Below are positions 7,944 to 17,440 of a stretch of 36,424 nt of DNA, one piece after another. Each line of letters begins with the position of its first letter. Within the stretch, counting starts at the first letter, position 1. The stretch comes from an uncultured Gammaproteobacteria bacterium (GTDB lineage Bacteria; Pseudomonadota; Gammaproteobacteria; Arenicellales; JAANXG01). The notes under the pieces are model-generated. The model worked only from the letters and a program-made list of their open reading frames with translations, ran no database searches and was not told the origin of the DNA. The DNA is taken from the NCBI GenBank assembly GCA_947259875.1, contig CAMYNX010000088.1:1-36424 (forward strand), read 5' to 3'. The translations under genes were made by a program, and so were the position numbers.

Positions 7944-8309
7944 TTAGGCTAACGGCCGGGGAGGTCTAAAGACTGTTTTGGACTGTTGTTGGTGGAATCT
8001 TTGCTGATGGGAGGTGGGAATAACGGACGGGTCGTCCTGTGAAATTCGCAACGCCGCAGACTGCAGCATGGTCACGCCATTCACACACTGTCCGCAGTGT
8101 GCAGATTGACAGCAAAATCCCTGCTGACACGCTCCGTTAGAAACAACGTGATGATCGAGGTGGGCGCACGGCGCCGCGGCTTCTGCATGGGTGCCGAGGG
8201 TGTGGGCCTGCTCTTTTTCGCAGCTGCCTGCAAACGACCATTGTATGGTGCCGACAACCAGAAAAGCCGCCAGTACACAGCGTATTGTCTTGTCGAGCAG
8301 GGTTCTCAT
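7944..8309 (-). CDS. CopL-like Cys-rich exported leader protein (copy 1)
   Basis: The protein has about 121 residues: signal peptide MRTLLDKTIRCVLAAFLVVG to about residue 27, then a Cys/His-rich core (CEKEQAH..., CAHLDHH, CQQGFCCQSAHCGQC) and a C-terminus ending FRPPRPLA. Short exported proteins with clustered Cys/His and a terminal PPR/RPP motif occur at the head of copper operons: CopL of Xanthomonas, and DUF2946/CruR-type upstream ORFs. Several of these act as copper-responsive regulators of the genes behind them. This gene lies 73 bases ahead of the oxidase operon on the same strand. The start is uncertain: the frame opens to 8387, but only the 8309 ATG gives a clean signal peptide. Confidence 0.75.
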   Translation of the reverse strand: MRTLLDKTIRCVLAAFLVVGTIQWSFAGSCEKEQAHTLGTHAEAAAPCAHLDHHVVSNGACQQGFCCQSAHCGQCVNGVTMLQSAALRISQDDPSVIPTSHQQRFHQQQSKTVFRPPRPLA

Positions 8310-8550
8310 CAGTGCAAACACAATCTGGGCATGAGCCAATAGACTCTTTTTCGGTCGCGAAGTTTCACAAAAAATCATCGCCAGCACAAATCTGACCGTG
8401 CCAGACAGTTAATTGATTGAAAAATTTTCCGTTCCTGCACCGCTTAATCCGTGTCTACAGAAACTACTTGCCGAAGCGGCGCCGTTATGCGGCCAAAACA
8501 CGGTGGATGGGCGTATACCCGGTTTTTATAACGAGATTTTTCCATCACGC

Positions 8551-8991
8551 TCACCAATCTTTGCAACACGCGATGATGCGGTCGACCACGATCTTTGTTT
8601 TTGGGTTTTGCCGGTAAAAATATAAGAGTGACAGCACGACCCACAATACCGCTAGCAGGCTCAGGCCGTATACGAGATCGGTGGTGACACCGAGTGCCAT
8701 AAAGGCAGCCAGGGTCAAAGTCAGCAACAACGGCAAACGGAAAATGTGTAATCCCTCGCTGGTTTTATTTTCCAGAAAATAATACACGCCGACAATGGTT
8801 TGTCCCATCAACACCGCAATGATTACCGGCTGATTGAATAGTCCGAGCCAATACAACACCAGTAACGCCATCCAGGTGACACTGACGCTCACACAGATCA
8901 CGCAAAATTTCCATTGGGTAACACTTTTGGTAATCAATAAGACCAAAAACAGTGCGGCGATGACCGACAATACCAGGACTGGATCGTTCAC
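8551..8991 (-). CDS. Four-helix membrane protein with CxxC, partner of the next gene
   Basis: The 146-residue protein has four predicted membrane helices (about 5-20, 28-50, 55-72 and 85-125). A CVIC motif (KFCVICVSVS) lies at the start of helix two and a Cys pair near the end (RIIACCKDW). The layout of paired Cys in a small four-helix bundle recalls thiol-redox membrane proteins such as the VKOR or MauE families, but no family is recognised. Its start overlaps the stop of the upstream membrane gene by ATGA (8988-8991), so the two are translationally coupled. Probably periplasmic thiol or metal chemistry (inference). Confidence 0.8.
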   Translation of the reverse strand: MNDPVLVLSVIAALFLVLLITKSVTQWKFCVICVSVSVTWMALLVLYWLGLFNQPVIIAVLMGQTIVGVYYFLENKTSEGLHIFRLPLLLTLTLAAFMALGVTTDLVYGLSLLAVLWVVLSLLYFYRQNPKTKIVVDRIIACCKDW

Positions 8992-9509
8992 ACCGCAAGC
9001 TCGATAGCAACTGCCGCAGAAACGAGTAACGCAAGCGTAATTACCATGCCTTGGAAGGGATACATCGCGCCGCCCCGTGCCAGTGCCAGTTTTCTACTGA
9101 GATAAGGCGACAAAAGTATCAGTACGCCTCCTATAATTCCGCCCACCAAGAATCGATTTATCAACAGGGTTTTCCCATATTCTCCCCAAAACGGCAGATA
9201 CACAGAGGTGTAGTCGGCCAGGGCGGATTGCAGGGGGAAGATGGTGGTAGCGAACGAGAAGATCGCCAGCGCCTCTTTTTGCCTGGGCACGTATTGTTTT
9301 TTCAGCAATCGTGCGACCCACAGTCCCAGCGCCACCGCGAACGCACCCAGGAATATGCCCACAGACATGGCCCCCACCCCGAGCTTGGCGGCGCCAAACG
9401 CCACCACCCCCGCACCCGCGGTGCACAACGGACAATGCGCATACGCCGTCGCCGGCAGCAGCAGCTGCAGCGCAAGCAGTCCGGTTAATAATGCTGCAAC
9501 AATAATCAT
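8988..9509 (-). CDS. Membrane protein with periplasmic HCPLC motif
   Basis: This 173-residue protein has a cleavable-looking signal (LLPATAYA) followed at once by HCPLCTAGAG, which puts a CxxC next to a His at the mature N-terminus. About four further membrane helices follow (GVGAMSVGIFLGAFAVALGLW, a middle one, INRFLVGGIIGGVLILLSPY, and the C-terminal helix). GGGAG seven bases ahead of the ATG supports the start. It overlaps the downstream CVIC membrane gene by four bases. Proteins with an N-terminal HCPLC and this topology recur beside copper and thiol-redox genes; the reaction is not known. Confidence 0.82.
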   Translation of the reverse strand: MIIVAALLTGLLALQLLLPATAYAHCPLCTAGAGVVAFGAAKLGVGAMSVGIFLGAFAVALGLWVARLLKKQYVPRQKEALAIFSFATTIFPLQSALADYTSVYLPFWGEYGKTLLINRFLVGGIIGGVLILLSPYLSRKLALARGGAMYPFQGMVITLALLVSAAVAIELAV

Positions 9510-9713
9510 CTCACTCTCCCATCACAAACCGGTCCATCCGTACTTGCTTAAGTATAGGGGACCAAACTCAACCGTCCGGCGTGACCCGGCCTCGATGCGC
9601 ACAGCGCGCGGATATCCGAGCGCAAGCCGGTGGCTCGAGGCTTTGAGATCCGAGCACCATGCTCACGCACAAGCAGTGTGGGTAACCGGACAGCGCACCC
9701 GCGTCCATACTGC

Positions 9714-10106
9714 TTACAGCTCTTCGTACAGGGCAATCTTGCCGTCTTTCATCGAGTAGATCTTCCAGGTTTGATTCTTTGGTCCGGGCATCCCGGGTGA
9801 TCCGGATGGCATGCCCGCCATCCCGATGCCGTCGATCGCCGGTTTTTCGGTCAACAGCTTGTCTATGACCTTGGACGGGATGTGCCCCTCGACAATGTAG
9901 TCGCCGATAATCGCGGTGTGACAGCTTTCCAGTGTTTCGGATACTTTATACTTGCGCTTGATCGCTGGCAGATCCTTGTCCTCCATGTTCACGACGTCGA
10001 CCTTGTAGCCGTTGCTTTCCATATGGTCTTTCCACCCGTTGCAACAACCGCAGGTGTAGGACTTGAACGCCAATCCGAGTATTGGTAACAACTTGAACGT
10101 CTTCAT
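9714..10106 (-). CDS. DUF411 metal-binding protein (CopG-like) with shortened signal region
   Basis: The 130-residue protein has the DUF411 core YTCGCCNGWKDHMESNG, KRKYKV, ESCHTAIIGDYIVEGHIP and IDGIGMAGMPSGSPGMPG. These supply the Cys/His/Met ligands typical of the family, which is found in copper and silver islands. The start at 10106 is preferred because GGAG lies eight bases before it and too close to the ATG at 10112. Oddity: only MKTFKLLPILGLA precedes FKSYTCGCC. Family members usually carry a full 20-25 residue signal plus an (I/V)xVYKSPTCGCC strand, so an in-frame loss of roughly 12-18 residues is suspected. The gene lies 40 bases after the CcdA-like gene. Confidence 0.9.
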   Translation of the reverse strand: MKTFKLLPILGLAFKSYTCGCCNGWKDHMESNGYKVDVVNMEDKDLPAIKRKYKVSETLESCHTAIIGDYIVEGHIPSKVIDKLLTEKPAIDGIGMAGMPSGSPGMPGPKNQTWKIYSMKDGKIALYEEL

Positions 10107-10151
10107 GAGCATGTCTCCAAAGTATATGCGTCAAAAGTTAAGCTATTTGAT

Positions 10152-10895
10152 TCAGCCGATGGTTGAAAACACTGGAAATGTTTTCAGCAGCCAAAACCCA
10201 AATGTAGATAGATAACCGGTGATCATGGCGATCCCGGTTACGATCAGAATCACACCGGCCACGATATGCAGTGTTTTGCCCATACGCCGCATCCCCTTGA
10301 GCCGGGTGAGAAACTTGTCCGCAAACAGCGCAGCGGCCAAAAACGGCAGGCTGAGCCCCAAGGCGTAGACGCTCAATAGGGCAATACCCTGATTCAAGGT
10401 TGCGGCCACCGCGCTGGCCGCGAGAATCGCGCCCAACACCGGTCCGATACAGGGGGTCCAGCCGAACCCGAACGCGAGGCCCAACAGGAACGCCGACACT
10501 GGACCGCCGCCTTCCAGGGTCACGTGAAAGCGTGTGTCGCGGTGCAGCTGCGGCAGCTTGATCAGCCCGGACATAAACAGACCAAAGACAATGATGATGG
10601 CGCCGCCGATAATGTTGGTTTCGTAGCGGTACTTGAGCAGCGACTGGCCGAGCACCGAGGCGCTCGCCCCAAGCACGATGAACACCACCGAAAAGCCCAA
10701 CACAAAAAACAGGCTGAGCGCCACGGCGGGTAACCGCGTATAGATCGGCTGTCCATTTTGCATATCGGTGATCGACCCCCCGGTAATGTAGGAAATATAC
10801 GCGGGAACCAGCGGCAGCACACAGGGGGAAAAAAACGATATGACACCGGCAAGGAAGATCGCTGGAAGCGCCAGGCTGGAGAGATCCCCCGCCAT
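10152..10895 (-). CDS. CcdA/DsbD-like transmembrane thiol reductant conduit
   Basis: The 247-residue protein has six membrane helices. It carries the family signatures GVISFFSPCVLPLVPAYISY in helix one and GFGWTPCIGPVLGAI in helix four, whose two Pro-Cys residues carry electrons from cytoplasmic thioredoxin to periplasmic partners. The length matches CcdA rather than full DsbD. The ATG at 10895 is the preferred start; a TTG twelve bases upstream lies inside the micro-ORF. The start codon shares its A with the micro-ORF stop (TAATG). The neighbouring TlpA protein is the natural substrate. Probable role: keeping periplasmic thiols reduced for copper-site or cytochrome c maturation. Confidence 0.94.
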   Translation of the reverse strand: MAGDLSSLALPAIFLAGVISFFSPCVLPLVPAYISYITGGSITDMQNGQPIYTRLPAVALSLFFVLGFSVVFIVLGASASVLGQSLLKYRYETNIIGGAIIIVFGLFMSGLIKLPQLHRDTRFHVTLEGGGPVSAFLLGLAFGFGWTPCIGPVLGAILAASAVAATLNQGIALLSVYALGLSLPFLAAALFADKFLTRLKGMRRMGKTLHIVAGVILIVTGIAMITGYLSTFGFWLLKTFPVFSTIG

Positions 10896-10969
10896 TACCA
10901 ATCCCAACCGCCGTTGTCCACGCTAACCAGCATGGCTGTTTTGTGACCGCCACAACTTTTCATGTTCAT
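10895..10969 (-). CDS. 24-codon micro-ORF coupled between tlpA and ccdA
   Basis: The peptide begins MNMKSCGGHK and ends NGGWDW. Its ATG overlaps the tlpA stop (ATGA, 10966-10969) and its TAA overlaps the ccdA start (TAATG, 10893-10897). It therefore fills the 70-base gap exactly, with no untranslated base. The peptide has one Cys and one His in a CGGH array, no signal peptide and a Trp-Asp-Trp end. Two readings are possible: a functional metal- or thiol-binding microprotein, or a leader whose translation couples tlpA to ccdA. No family is recognised. The seamless overlaps support translation; conservation is untested. Confidence 0.6.
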   Translation of the reverse strand: MNMKSCGGHKTAMLVSVDNGGWDW

Positions 10970-11541
10970 TTTCTTAATTTCTCGATCAGCGGCAGCAGTG
11001 TATCTTTGAGAACCCGTCCGTTTACGGCCCCGATGTGCTTGTAGGCGATGCGGCCGTTCCGGTCGATTACAAAAGTCTCCGGCACCCCGTAGACACCCCA
11101 ATCGATCCCGACCCGGCCGTTGATATCCGCACCGGTTCGGGTATACGGATCGCCCAAGGCGTCTAGCCACGCGGCGGCGTCTTTTGGCTGGTCCTTATAG
11201 TTTAAACCGTGGATCGGTACGATATTTTCCTGATACATCTGCATGAACAGCGGATGTTCATCCCGGCACGCGGTGCACCACGATGCAAACACGTTTACCA
11301 GGGAAACCTCGCCTACGAGATTATTAGTGGCCAGGCCTTCCGTGCGCCCCTGGACCGGCGGCAGACTGAACTCAGGCACTGACTTGCCAATCAATGGGGA
11401 TGGTACCTCCCGCGGATCGAGGGTGAGCCCGATACCCAGAAAGATTCCGATGGCGACAAAGATTGCCAGGGGCACCAGGAACTTGAAAGCCTGAGGGCGA
11501 GGCGCTCGCCGCGTTGCCTCGATCGATACTTTTTCAGACAT
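10966..11541 (-). CDS. TlpA/DsbE-type membrane-anchored thioredoxin-like protein
   Basis: The 191-residue protein has one N-terminal membrane anchor (about 21-42) and then a periplasmic thioredoxin fold. The active site WCTAC lies at 88-92. Family features are VNVFASWC, the DsbE/CcmG-type GVYGVPETFVID with its cis-Pro loop, and GRIAYKHIGAV. It resembles CcmG/DsbE, which reduces apocytochrome c or other periplasmic thiols. The start at 11541 has AGGAAGGA just ahead and overlaps the end of the MerR gene by eight bases. With the CcdA-like protein next door it forms a complete electron-relay pair. Its targets could be the island's cytochromes or copper proteins (inference). Confidence 0.94.
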   Translation of the reverse strand: MSEKVSIEATRRAPRPQAFKFLVPLAIFVAIGIFLGIGLTLDPREVPSPLIGKSVPEFSLPPVQGRTEGLATNNLVGEVSLVNVFASWCTACRDEHPLFMQMYQENIVPIHGLNYKDQPKDAAAWLDALGDPYTRTGADINGRVGIDWGVYGVPETFVIDRNGRIAYKHIGAVNGRVLKDTLLPLIEKLRK

Positions 11542-11989
11542 AGCGTCCTTCCTCGATCATTTCGTAACTTTCAGTGCGCAAGGCTTCGCTCGCCGAGTCA
11601 ATGAGCCGGCAAACGCCATTGTTGCCGGAAACATCGTCTGGGAGGTGTCGCCATAGTGCCAACGTTTTTTCCATGCGAGCTTGCAGGCACACGAGTTCTT
11701 CAATTTTCCTTTGGTTTTCACTGATGCGCTGACTCAGAATGTTCCGCACCCTTTGACAAGGTGGGTGTCCCTGCTCTGAGATCGCCAGAATCTCGAAGAT
11801 CTCGTTCAAGGTGAAACCGAGGTGCTGTGCGCTGCGGATGAACCGCAACCGTTCCAGATCGGTAGGTTTAAAAACCCGATATCCATTTTTGGGATCCCGG
11901 CGCGGGTTGAGAAGTCCGATGCGGGAGTAGTAGCGGACCGTGTGTGCGGATACGCCGCTGTGCTTGGACAATGCATTGACAGTAATCAT
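11534..11989 (-). CDS. MerR-family transcriptional regulator
   Basis: The 151-residue protein has the MerR N-terminal winged helix (MITVNALSKHSGVSAHTVRYYSRIGLL, NGYRVF, LERLRFI) and a central coiled coil (about 80-120). Cys occurs in HPPCQRV (near 77), in LVCLQAR and in NGVCRLI (near 132). The latter are candidates for metal sensing, but the exact CueR (CxCx6C..) or ZntR loop is not present, so the inducer is unclear. The ATG at 11989 has CAGGAG eight bases upstream. It overlaps tlpA and most likely controls this unit; a metal or a thiol stress signal is plausible from context. Confidence 0.92.
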   Translation of the reverse strand: MITVNALSKHSGVSAHTVRYYSRIGLLNPRRDPKNGYRVFKPTDLERLRFIRSAQHLGFTLNEIFEILAISEQGHPPCQRVRNILSQRISENQRKIEELVCLQARMEKTLALWRHLPDDVSGNNGVCRLIDSASEALRTESYEMIEEGRYV

Positions 11990-12012
11990 CACTATATCTC
12001 CTGAGACAAGAG

Positions 12013-12056
12013 TCGATAGCGACACACCCGTAGTCAAAAATTTGTAGCTGGGTGTC
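12013..12056 (-). promoter_or_regulatory. Candidate promoter/operator region ahead of the MerR gene
   Basis: On the minus strand a TTGACT box (12032-12037) is flanked by GACACCC (12050-12056) and GGGTGTGTC (12021-12029). These form an imperfect inverted repeat around it. MerR-type promoters often pair TTGACT with a dyad and a long spacer. No convincing -10 hexamer at 18-20 bases was found, so this is a weak call. Confidence 0.25.
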
Positions 12057-12107
12057 CGATATCAGTGTGGGATCCGGCAGCCTGGCATCAGCTCACAGCT
12101 ACCGTGG

Positions 12108-12515
12108 TCAGGAGACGAGTCGTGGAGGATGGAAGATACTGGTTGAGTGGTTGGTTAGGATTAGATTCGGCGGATCCTGAATGACGACCGTAACACCGCG
12201 CTGGACCCAAATTTCGCCCACCCGATGCGTCAACACGGTCGTGCCGGATAGTGAGCACGATATAGCGCACTCGTTGCAGTCAGACATCGACATGTTTGCT
12301 GGGCAGTCTGATTCCGGGGTGCAGTCTGGCGAGGTACACGGTTTGTGGGCCGAAGATTCGTGAGCCGATGCCATGCCGACTGCAGCCCCCTGGTCCACCG
12401 AGCCGTCACCCATCATCATGCCAGGCGAAACCTGCACTGCAGCCGGGGCCGCTGACAGCATAACCAGTGCCGCCATTATGGCCCACAAGACCGTTGGTAC
12501 GATTCGACCACTCAT
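12108..12515 (-). CDS. CopL-like Cys-rich exported leader protein (copy 2)
   Basis: The 135-residue protein has a signal peptide (MSGRIVPTVLWAIMAALVML, cut near SAAPAA), a Met/Ser/His-rich stretch (SPGMMMGDG...ASAHESSAH) and a Cys cluster (CTSPDCTPESDCPANMSMSDCNECAISC). It ends IFHPPRLVS. The plan matches the protein at 7944-8309: signal, Cys cluster ending in CxxC, about 60 residues, then a PPR terminus. It heads the MerR-TlpA-CcdA unit, 118 bases upstream, as the other copy heads the oxidase operon. CopL/DUF2946-type proteins are the closest known parallel. An ATG at 12557 is possible but would place residues before the signal. Confidence 0.72.
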   Translation of the reverse strand: MSGRIVPTVLWAIMAALVMLSAAPAAVQVSPGMMMGDGSVDQGAAVGMASAHESSAHKPCTSPDCTPESDCPANMSMSDCNECAISCSLSGTTVLTHRVGEIWVQRGVTVVIQDPPNLILTNHSTSIFHPPRLVS

Positions 12516-12735
12516 TGTAAAAATATAGCACACCGGCTCACGATTCGAATGTGACATATGTTAAAAAGCACGGCAAAGTTTACTCAGAATACGGGGTTTT
12601 TTAAGAGTCAGGCGCTAAATTGGTGTTTTTCGCGGCACGCATCGACATGGAATGCGGCGCCTCAATGGTCAAAGGCATCGACCCGGTCCTGCCAGGCACG
12701 GCGTCCGGTCCATGGCCGGCACCGAAGTTACGGGA

Positions 12736-16918: not shown

Positions 16919-17440
16919 GTGAATAGAAAAGCTACCGCGGTTGTCTCGAGTTTGTTGTTGTGGGCACCGCTGTTTGTGATCGGTCCGGTGGCCCAGGCCA
17001 ACACGGAGCCGCCGATCATCAGAGCCGCCGGTTGCCTGATTCCGACGCCCAAGGGGATCGTGATGGGGATAAATCGGGTTTTGGGTAAGATCCAGCTTCC
17101 GATGGGCAGGCATATGGCCGGTGAGGATCCGCGACAAACCGCCGCCCGGGAAACGTTGGAGGAAACCGGTATTGATGTGGATGTTGATGCGCTGATTCTG
17201 ACGCTCGAGAATAACCAGGTTTATCTCTTTTTGTGTACACCCAAAACGCCCATCACCGATTATTCAATTTTGCAGTCCAGGGACAAGTGGGAAGTATCGA
17301 AAGTCGTGGTACTTGACCCTCATACTATGCGTAATTTCGATGGCACGATCATTACTAATGCTTGGCGTTTTCCCGAGACTCGGGTTTTCTTGAAAGCGCT
17401 GTTTCCAAGTGGAGAAAAGGCGAATGGCATGGGGGGGTAA
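16919..17440 (+). CDS. Exported Nudix-family hydrolase
   Basis: The 173-residue protein has a clear Sec signal peptide (about 1-27, SSLLLWAPLFVIGPVAQA). A Nudix domain follows whose box (63-85: G-x5-E-x7-RETLEETGI) matches GX5EX7REUXEEXGU at every fixed position, so the metal-binding glutamates are intact. Nudix enzymes cleave nucleoside-diphosphate-linked compounds and are normally cytoplasmic, so an exported one is unusual. The start is uncertain: GTG at 16919 gives the signal peptide directly, and a TTG at 16910 is also in frame. The gene converges on the small minus-strand gene at 17549. Confidence 0.82.
   Translation: MNRKATAVVSSLLLWAPLFVIGPVAQANTEPPIIRAAGCLIPTPKGIVMGINRVLGKIQLPMGRHMAGEDPRQTAARETLEETGIDVDVDALILTLENNQVYLFLCTPKTPITDYSILQSRDKWEVSKVVVLDPHTMRNFDGTIITNAWRFPETRVFLKALFPSGEKANGMGG

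Follow-up and report, generated by a model that had tools for sequence, protein, structure and literature searches.

A 24-codon open reading frame between tlpA and ccdA keeps its overlaps and phase while its peptide drifts, consistent with a translational relay

A small open reading frame (micro-ORF) of 24 codons fills the 70-nt gap between the stop of a gene for a DsbE/TlpA-family protein (here, tlpA) and the ATG of ccdA in the 36,424-nucleotide stretch of gammaproteobacterial DNA analyzed here (the window), and it probably acts as a translational (termination-reinitiation) relay from tlpA to ccdA. A previous examination of the letters alone (the sequence-only reading) had proposed either a copper/thiol microprotein or a coupling leader and had regarded both as new. 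The coupling leader is the better supported of these because the architecture of the junction is kept while the sequence drifts; it is not new in kind, given a reported mycobacterial precedent (PMC4633059).

Micro-ORF and flanking genes

The micro-ORF lies on the minus strand at 10895 to 10969 and consists of 24 codons plus TAA (translation, MNMKSCGGHKTAMLVSVDNGGWDW). Read from 10969 to 10895, its start codon overlaps the tlpA stop and its stop codon overlaps the ccdA start, just as the sequence-only reading described. The features of the locus were as follows.

9714-10112, minus strand: DUF411 protein (PF04214), downstream of ccdA after a 39-nt gap
10152-10895, minus strand: ccdA, DsbD_TM membrane protein, 247 aa (PF02683, 67.7 bits)
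10893-10897, minus strand: TAATG, micro-ORF stop and ccdA start (-1 overlap); micro-ORF TAA at 10897-10895
10895-10969, minus strand: bridging micro-ORF, most likely a ribosome relay; offsets the same in 6 of 7 close relatives, peptide unconserved
10966-10969, minus strand: ATGA, DsbE/TlpA stop and micro-ORF start (-4 overlap); micro-ORF ATG at 10969-10967
10966-11541, minus strand: tlpA, DsbE-family thiol:disulfide interchange protein, 191 aa (TIGR00385 dsbE, PF08534)
11534-11989, minus strand: merR-family regulator (PF13411/PF09278); stop overlaps the tlpA start by 8 nt (ATGTCTGA)

The protein encoded by tlpA scored 167.5 bits against the dsbE model TIGR00385 (cutoff, 123.15), versus just 26.8 bits against the TlpA model NF047696 (cutoff, 230). 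Both flanking genes look complete, as had been stated from the letters alone, because the alignments covered positions 2 to 173 of 173 in the DsbE model and 3 to 215 of 219 in DsbD_TM (PF02683). No NCBIfam model matched CcdA above its own cutoff.

Layout of the junction in related genomes

A CcdA search of 109 genomes of the order gave 11 matches at an E value of 1e-60 or better. Eight of these, with ccdA at least 78% identical and tlpA directly upstream, formed the close set (locus L016, a duplicate of the G005 junction, was not counted); these 8 were the only close junctions found, and most share ancestry. The frame was open, free of internal stops, and overlapped both neighbors in 7 of the 8 distinct junctions. 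It comprised 24 codons in the window, G003, G004, G005, and G006 (with a GTG start), 25 codons in G001, and 6 codons in G017. The -4 overlap at the start was present in all seven bridged junctions, the window included (ATGA in six, GTGA in one), and their gaps of 70, 73, 70, 70, 70, 70, and 16 nt are all 1 mod 3. In contrast, the next gap of the operon, between ccdA and the DUF411 gene, measured 39, 39, 40, 38, and 39 nt in the five closest genomes (window, G001, G003, G004, and G005) and 36, 95, and 43 nt in G017, G006, and G002, so that its phase drifts.

The remaining close junction, in G002 (locus L008), contains no micro-ORF; tlpA itself ends in the same TAATG (gap, -1 nt). TAATG was thus found at the ccdA start in 8/8 close junctions, with some frame ending there in each. 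The overlaps and the phase were also present in G006 and G017, though the spacers of these two no longer resemble that of the window. Among more distant loci of the same order, L010 (G014) had an 11-nt gap and no bridge, L013 (G018) had a frame of 4 to 5 codons that ends 4 nt short of ccdA, and L012 (G008) had no tlpA match beside ccdA. A TlpA search matched 150 of 369 genomes of the class, and among the 30 loci examined ccdA adjoined tlpA in the window's own only. The ccdA search of the same 369 genomes gave nothing above 63% identity besides the window's own gene, and no ccdA was found in viral contigs.

Divergence of the peptide

Substitutions were compared pairwise among the five closest genomes (ten pairs). 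For the micro-ORF, pN was 0.388 and pS was 0.522 (pN/pS, 0.74, a rough value given the few sites), compared with pN of 0.064 and pS of 0.439 for tlpA and pN of 0.051 and pS of 0.433 for ccdA. The pN of the micro-ORF was therefore near the pS of the flanking genes (0.43 to 0.44) and six- to eightfold above their pN. Differences were spread evenly over the codon positions of the micro-ORF (0.46, 0.38, and 0.41), whereas those of tlpA were concentrated at the third (0.09, 0.05, and 0.33). On these comparisons the peptide is without detectable constraint, and the dN/dS check suggested for it came out against a conserved product.

The motifs CGGH and GWDW, whose conservation at related junctions the sequence-only reading had named as a check, were confined to the window's peptide and occurred in 0/6 of the other bridging peptides of close relatives. 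Cysteine counts over the seven bridging peptides were 1, 1, 1, 1, 3, 0, and 0, with none in G006 or G017. Neither Pfam nor NCBIfam gave a match to the peptide; a search at an E value of 1 across 13 genomes of the family recovered it in its own genome and in none of the 12 others, and a protein search of its whole own genome at an E value of 10 returned one match. A plasmid search with 23 of the 24 residues returned two Streptomyces matches (E values, 2 and 5), which were taken as noise. Of the two signs of neutral drift that had been named as arguing against a functional product, the unconserved peptide was found, while the predicted stops or frameshifts were absent from the frame.

Retention of the open frame

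The five closest genomes carried stops in the other two spacer frames in 4/5 and 5/5 cases (9/10 in all, nine stops at seven places) and in the micro-ORF frame in 0/5. If the frames were exchangeable, the probability of this pattern would be about 0.008, a figure that overstates the case because three stops share a place. All three frames are open in the G006 spacer; apart from the overlaps and phase, the open frame of this genome is hardly informative. In a tree-based neutral simulation started from the present-day spacers, the frame stayed open in all four other close genomes with a probability of 0.09 to 0.18; this simulation scores stops alone and leaves the overlaps and the 3-nt length change of G001 uncounted.

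How often such frames occur was estimated from the window and 20 further 20-kb stretches of this genome, 436 kb in all, with simple gene calling. Strictly bridging frames numbered 2 among 81 same-strand gaps of 15 to 150 nt, whereas base shuffling of the spacers gave 0.50 on average (24/300 shuffles reached 2), and with looser windows 8 bridged gaps were observed versus 6.4 expected. A single bridging frame is on its own within chance genome-wide. What goes beyond chance, as judged from the related junctions, is the retention of the frame in the same form.

Control gaps were taken from these 8 loosely bridged ones, of which the window's and the ilvD-SH3 gap are the strict ones; ilvD-SH3 was followed together with three of the remaining six. 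At the tlpA-ccdA junction, 6/7 relatives had both the start and the stop at exactly the same offsets, compared with 1/19 relative-junctions for the four controls (ilvD-SH3, 0/5; atpG-atpD, 0/5; the other two, 1/5 and 0/4), with one control pair, at L191, unscored since its downstream gene falls outside the locus (Fisher test, P = 2e-4, relatedness ignored). The control relatives all belong to the genus, and the tlpA-ccdA set adds G006 and G017; with same-genus relatives only (4/5), P was 2e-3. In looser windows some bridge, mostly in a different frame, was present in 9/19 control junctions versus 6/7 here (ilvD-SH3, 3/5; atpG-atpD, 3/5; the other two, 1/5 and 2/4, mostly at other offsets).

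The ilvD-SH3 control is imperfect: a GTG stands 3 nt before the called start of the downstream gene in 6/6 sequences and is probably the true start, with ATG at the called start in 3/6. In G000 this gap is bridged by a 29-codon frame (L157, 14793 to 14879, minus strand; loci L172 to L177). Given the probable GTG start and some bridging frame in 3/5 relatives, the ilvD-SH3 bridge may itself be a looser relay.

Alternative explanations

The most serious alternative to a relay is an ordinary gap in which one frame is open by luck, the overlaps are coincidental or serve something else, and ccdA starts alone. The half a frame or so expected by chance per 81 gaps, the neutral probability of staying open in four relatives, the moderate Shine-Dalgarno-like stretch of ccdA, and the loose bridges at nearly half of the control junctions are all in keeping with it, but it leaves unexplained the two overlaps and the phase in G006 and G017 despite dissimilar spacers, the invariant TAATG of the close junctions, and the near absence of control bridges kept in the same form. 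We consider this account unlikely, though it deserves real weight. A functional microprotein, such as a copper/thiol ligand or a partner of TlpA and CcdA, would fit the CGGH motif and tryptophan-rich end of the window's peptide and the copper/redox neighborhood; with a pN as high as the flanking pS, CGGH in 1/7 peptides, cysteine-free versions in two genomes, and no database or family match, the peptide shows no Cys/His motif under purifying selection, and the proposal, as put forward by the sequence-only reading, can scarcely be upheld.

A regulatory leader of the mgtQ type, in which translation of the micro-ORF would melt or form a hairpin that hides the ccdA ribosome site, has a known precedent: mgtQ, a small ORF lying between mgtC and mgtB in a Salmonella operon, is likewise reported to promote translation of the gene that follows (PMC8092293). 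It differs in having its own strong Shine-Dalgarno sequence, in lying 51 nt from the upstream stop, and in its reported means of action, alternative stem-loops and acidic residues (PMC8092293). Here a consensus fold does cover the ccdA start, with 3/23 pairs kept while both sides changed; against this, the fold of the window's sequence does not surpass those of shuffled sequences (z, 0.16; 107/200 as good), the covariation term is unfavorable (+1.84), no Rfam model matched at gathering scores between 10100 and 12100, and the micro-ORF start has no strong Shine-Dalgarno sequence of its own (-3.0 kcal/mol, about the median). Such a leader is very unlikely. The micro-ORF is also in the -1 frame of tlpA, so a -1 frameshift at the tlpA end would yield TlpA with a 24-residue tail; there is no conserved slippery heptamer, the tlpA ends differ by eye (AAGAAAATGA, GAGAGAATGA, GAGGGAATGA, and AAGAGAATGA), and the tail would be unconserved, which makes frameshifting a barely credible account.

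Translational relay from tlpA to ccdA

Under the relay reading, ribosomes finishing the DsbE/TlpA gene at ATGA would reinitiate at the overlapping ATG of the micro-ORF, translate 24 arbitrary codons, terminate at TAATG, and reinitiate on ccdA. Translation of ccdA would in this way stay tied to that of its upstream partner over 70 nt, a distance that ribosomes would seldom cover unaided after termination, and the stretch of mRNA from merR through tlpA and the relay to ccdA would be translated without a break. The peptide would be a by-product; what would be needed is the phase and the absence of stops. The layout of the junction, its retention in relatives, and the absence of detectable constraint on the peptide are observed; translation of the micro-ORF, a dependence of ccdA on it, and selection for the coupling are inferred. 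Both ATGA (10969-10966) and TAATG (10897-10893) are stop/start overlaps of the kind that defines coupled pairs, and both are kept in relatives. No promoter-like or terminator-like site was found on the minus strand from 9600 to 12300, in keeping with the relay, and neither RNA structure nor Rfam families offered an alternative.

Reinitiation was strongly distance dependent in six native gene pairs from two species; of three Escherichia coli pairs given a 38-nt gap, two are reported to have lost 80 to 90% of it and one to have lost it altogether (PMC10666635). Given this distance dependence, a 70-nt gap should uncouple ccdA unless ribosomes are carried across, and direct coupling over such a length is improbable. 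A review proposes that delivering a ribosome to the next gene may be all that a short ORF does (PMC12548453), and a synthetic version of such an ORF is reported to raise expression (PMC13255528).

Several observations count against the relay. The Shine-Dalgarno-like stretch of ccdA has a predicted energy of -4.2 kcal/mol, equaled or exceeded by 41% of 343 called genes (-10.1 in G017), and with this moderate stretch ccdA may initiate alone; the micro-ORF start has no strong one (-3.0 kcal/mol). The neutral openness of 0.09 to 0.18, the loose bridges in 9/19 control junctions, the uninformative G006 frame, the small and largely related set of close junctions, and the exceptions at L010 and L013 weigh in the same direction, as does a rival model named in PMC10666635, in which ribosomes scan long gaps.

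If the relay is right, the micro-ORF is a natural intergenic frame kept for the act of translation and not for its product. The close junctions would then provide a clean comparison set, with the same genes at gaps of 70, 73, 16, and -1 nt and always a frame ending at the ccdA start. The case also carries a warning for small-protein surveys: a small ORF that is open, overlapping, and long kept need not encode a functional peptide.

Comparison with known systems

Coupled small ORFs of mycobacteria (Shell et al. 2015, PMC4633059) are described as having at times just their placement and coupled architecture conserved, not the peptide, and the micro-ORF shares this pattern as well as a stop that overlaps the start of the next gene. 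The mycobacterial ORFs are reported to begin leaderless transcripts and to end at RTGA (PMC4633059), in contrast to the micro-ORF, which appears to lie inside an operon, has a start that overlaps a gene's stop, and finishes with TAATG. Coupling conserved without the peptide is already known, and what is new here is its apparent position inside an operon with overlap at both ends.

In MIRU elements, likewise, a short overlap couples a short ORF within an insert to the gene downstream (PMC12548453), but they are interspersed repeats, unlike the window's peptide with its single match in its own genome. The nearest case in the literature found is dba-dsbI of Campylobacter jejuni, in which translation of a small upstream cistron is reported to be required for expression of a membrane thiol-redox protein (PMC3167755). 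It differs in that Dba is longer than 28 residues and is proposed to have a function itself, in the 11-bp gap, and in a proposed mRNA hairpin (PMC3167755). Termination-reinitiation pairs with -4, -1, and -8 overlaps are described as using the same coupling step (PMC10666635, PMC6728339); there two protein genes overlap directly, whereas here a frame with an unconserved product is interposed and two steps would be involved. No small ORF between tlpA or dsbE and ccdA was named in the titles and abstract openings of a mostly open literature, PMC4460558 included.

Bridged gaps upstream of other ccdA genes

A wider survey drew 104 ccdA loci from genome contigs, the order, and the class; loci that lacked an ORF of 100 codons in the 260 nt upstream were dropped (15/104), and among the rest, the 48 junctions whose gaps measured 15 to 150 nt fell into 35 clusters. 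A gap was scored as bridged if a frame started at -4 to +3 of the upstream stop and ended at -4 to +14 of the ccdA start. Bridges were found in 18/35 clusters versus 7.1 expected from dinucleotide shuffles (0/400 reached 18) and, without the six clusters of the window's clade, in 12/29 versus 5.9 expected. Among these twelve, some are weak by their shuffle bridging rates (L020, 0.68; L025, 0.78; L048, 0.92; L039, 0.77; L061, 0.61), and others are less expected (L040, 0.07; L013, 0.07; L137, 0.07; L078, 0.17). The upstream gene was taken as the longest ORF, the ccdA start is uncertain in one Rhodobacteraceae group, and L062 was scored with differing upstream ORFs. Because the windows were chosen after some of the data had been seen and the clusters are partly nonindependent, the survey is a lead and not a result, hinting that bridged gaps before ccdA are more common than chance.

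It is conceivable, if rather doubtful, that sequence-free relays recur before ccdA-type genes in Proteobacteria, with the second reinitiation step fixing a low ratio of CcdA to its partner and just the phase and overlaps kept. If so, ccdA would be reached by just part of the ribosomes that translate the upstream redox gene, which would hold the membrane electron conduit low relative to its periplasmic partner.

Two groups of frames seen in these loci are recorded separately. A 30-codon frame bridges the gap before ccdA in L028, L029, L030, L032, L034, L043, L044, and L077; it varies little or not at all among several Rhodobacteraceae genera and Jiella, which suggests an element that spread recently. 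In Alcaligenaceae and Nitrosomonas (L078, L079, and L081 to L086), frames of 12 to 20 codons run from the upstream stop to 8 to 13 nt inside ccdA; that of L084 has the same length and phase and a different peptide.

Operon and neighboring genes

The order of tlpA, ccdA, the DUF411 gene, and the next two genes was kept in the stretches of 7/7 relatives. In the same stretches, some of which end early, merR was matched in 5/7 and the efflux and oxidase genes were matched in 3/7. The 8-nt overlap of merR and tlpA (11534-11541) was kept in 6/6 sequences in which both genes were mapped, the window included (8 examined). Beyond the DUF411 gene lie genes for proteins without a Pfam match, an outer-membrane efflux protein, and a multicopper oxidase. 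Two proteins encoded on the minus strand at 8551 to 8991 and 8988 to 9509 appear membrane-like by eye and have no Pfam or NCBIfam match; their genes overlap by 4 nt in 8/8 sequences mapped. Two small Cys-rich copper-cluster proteins without a Pfam match are encoded at 7944 to 8387 and 12108 to 12557 (minus strand). Farther away, the plus strand at 16919 to 17440 encodes a NUDIX-like protein with a signal-peptide-like N terminus, as judged by eye from the translation.
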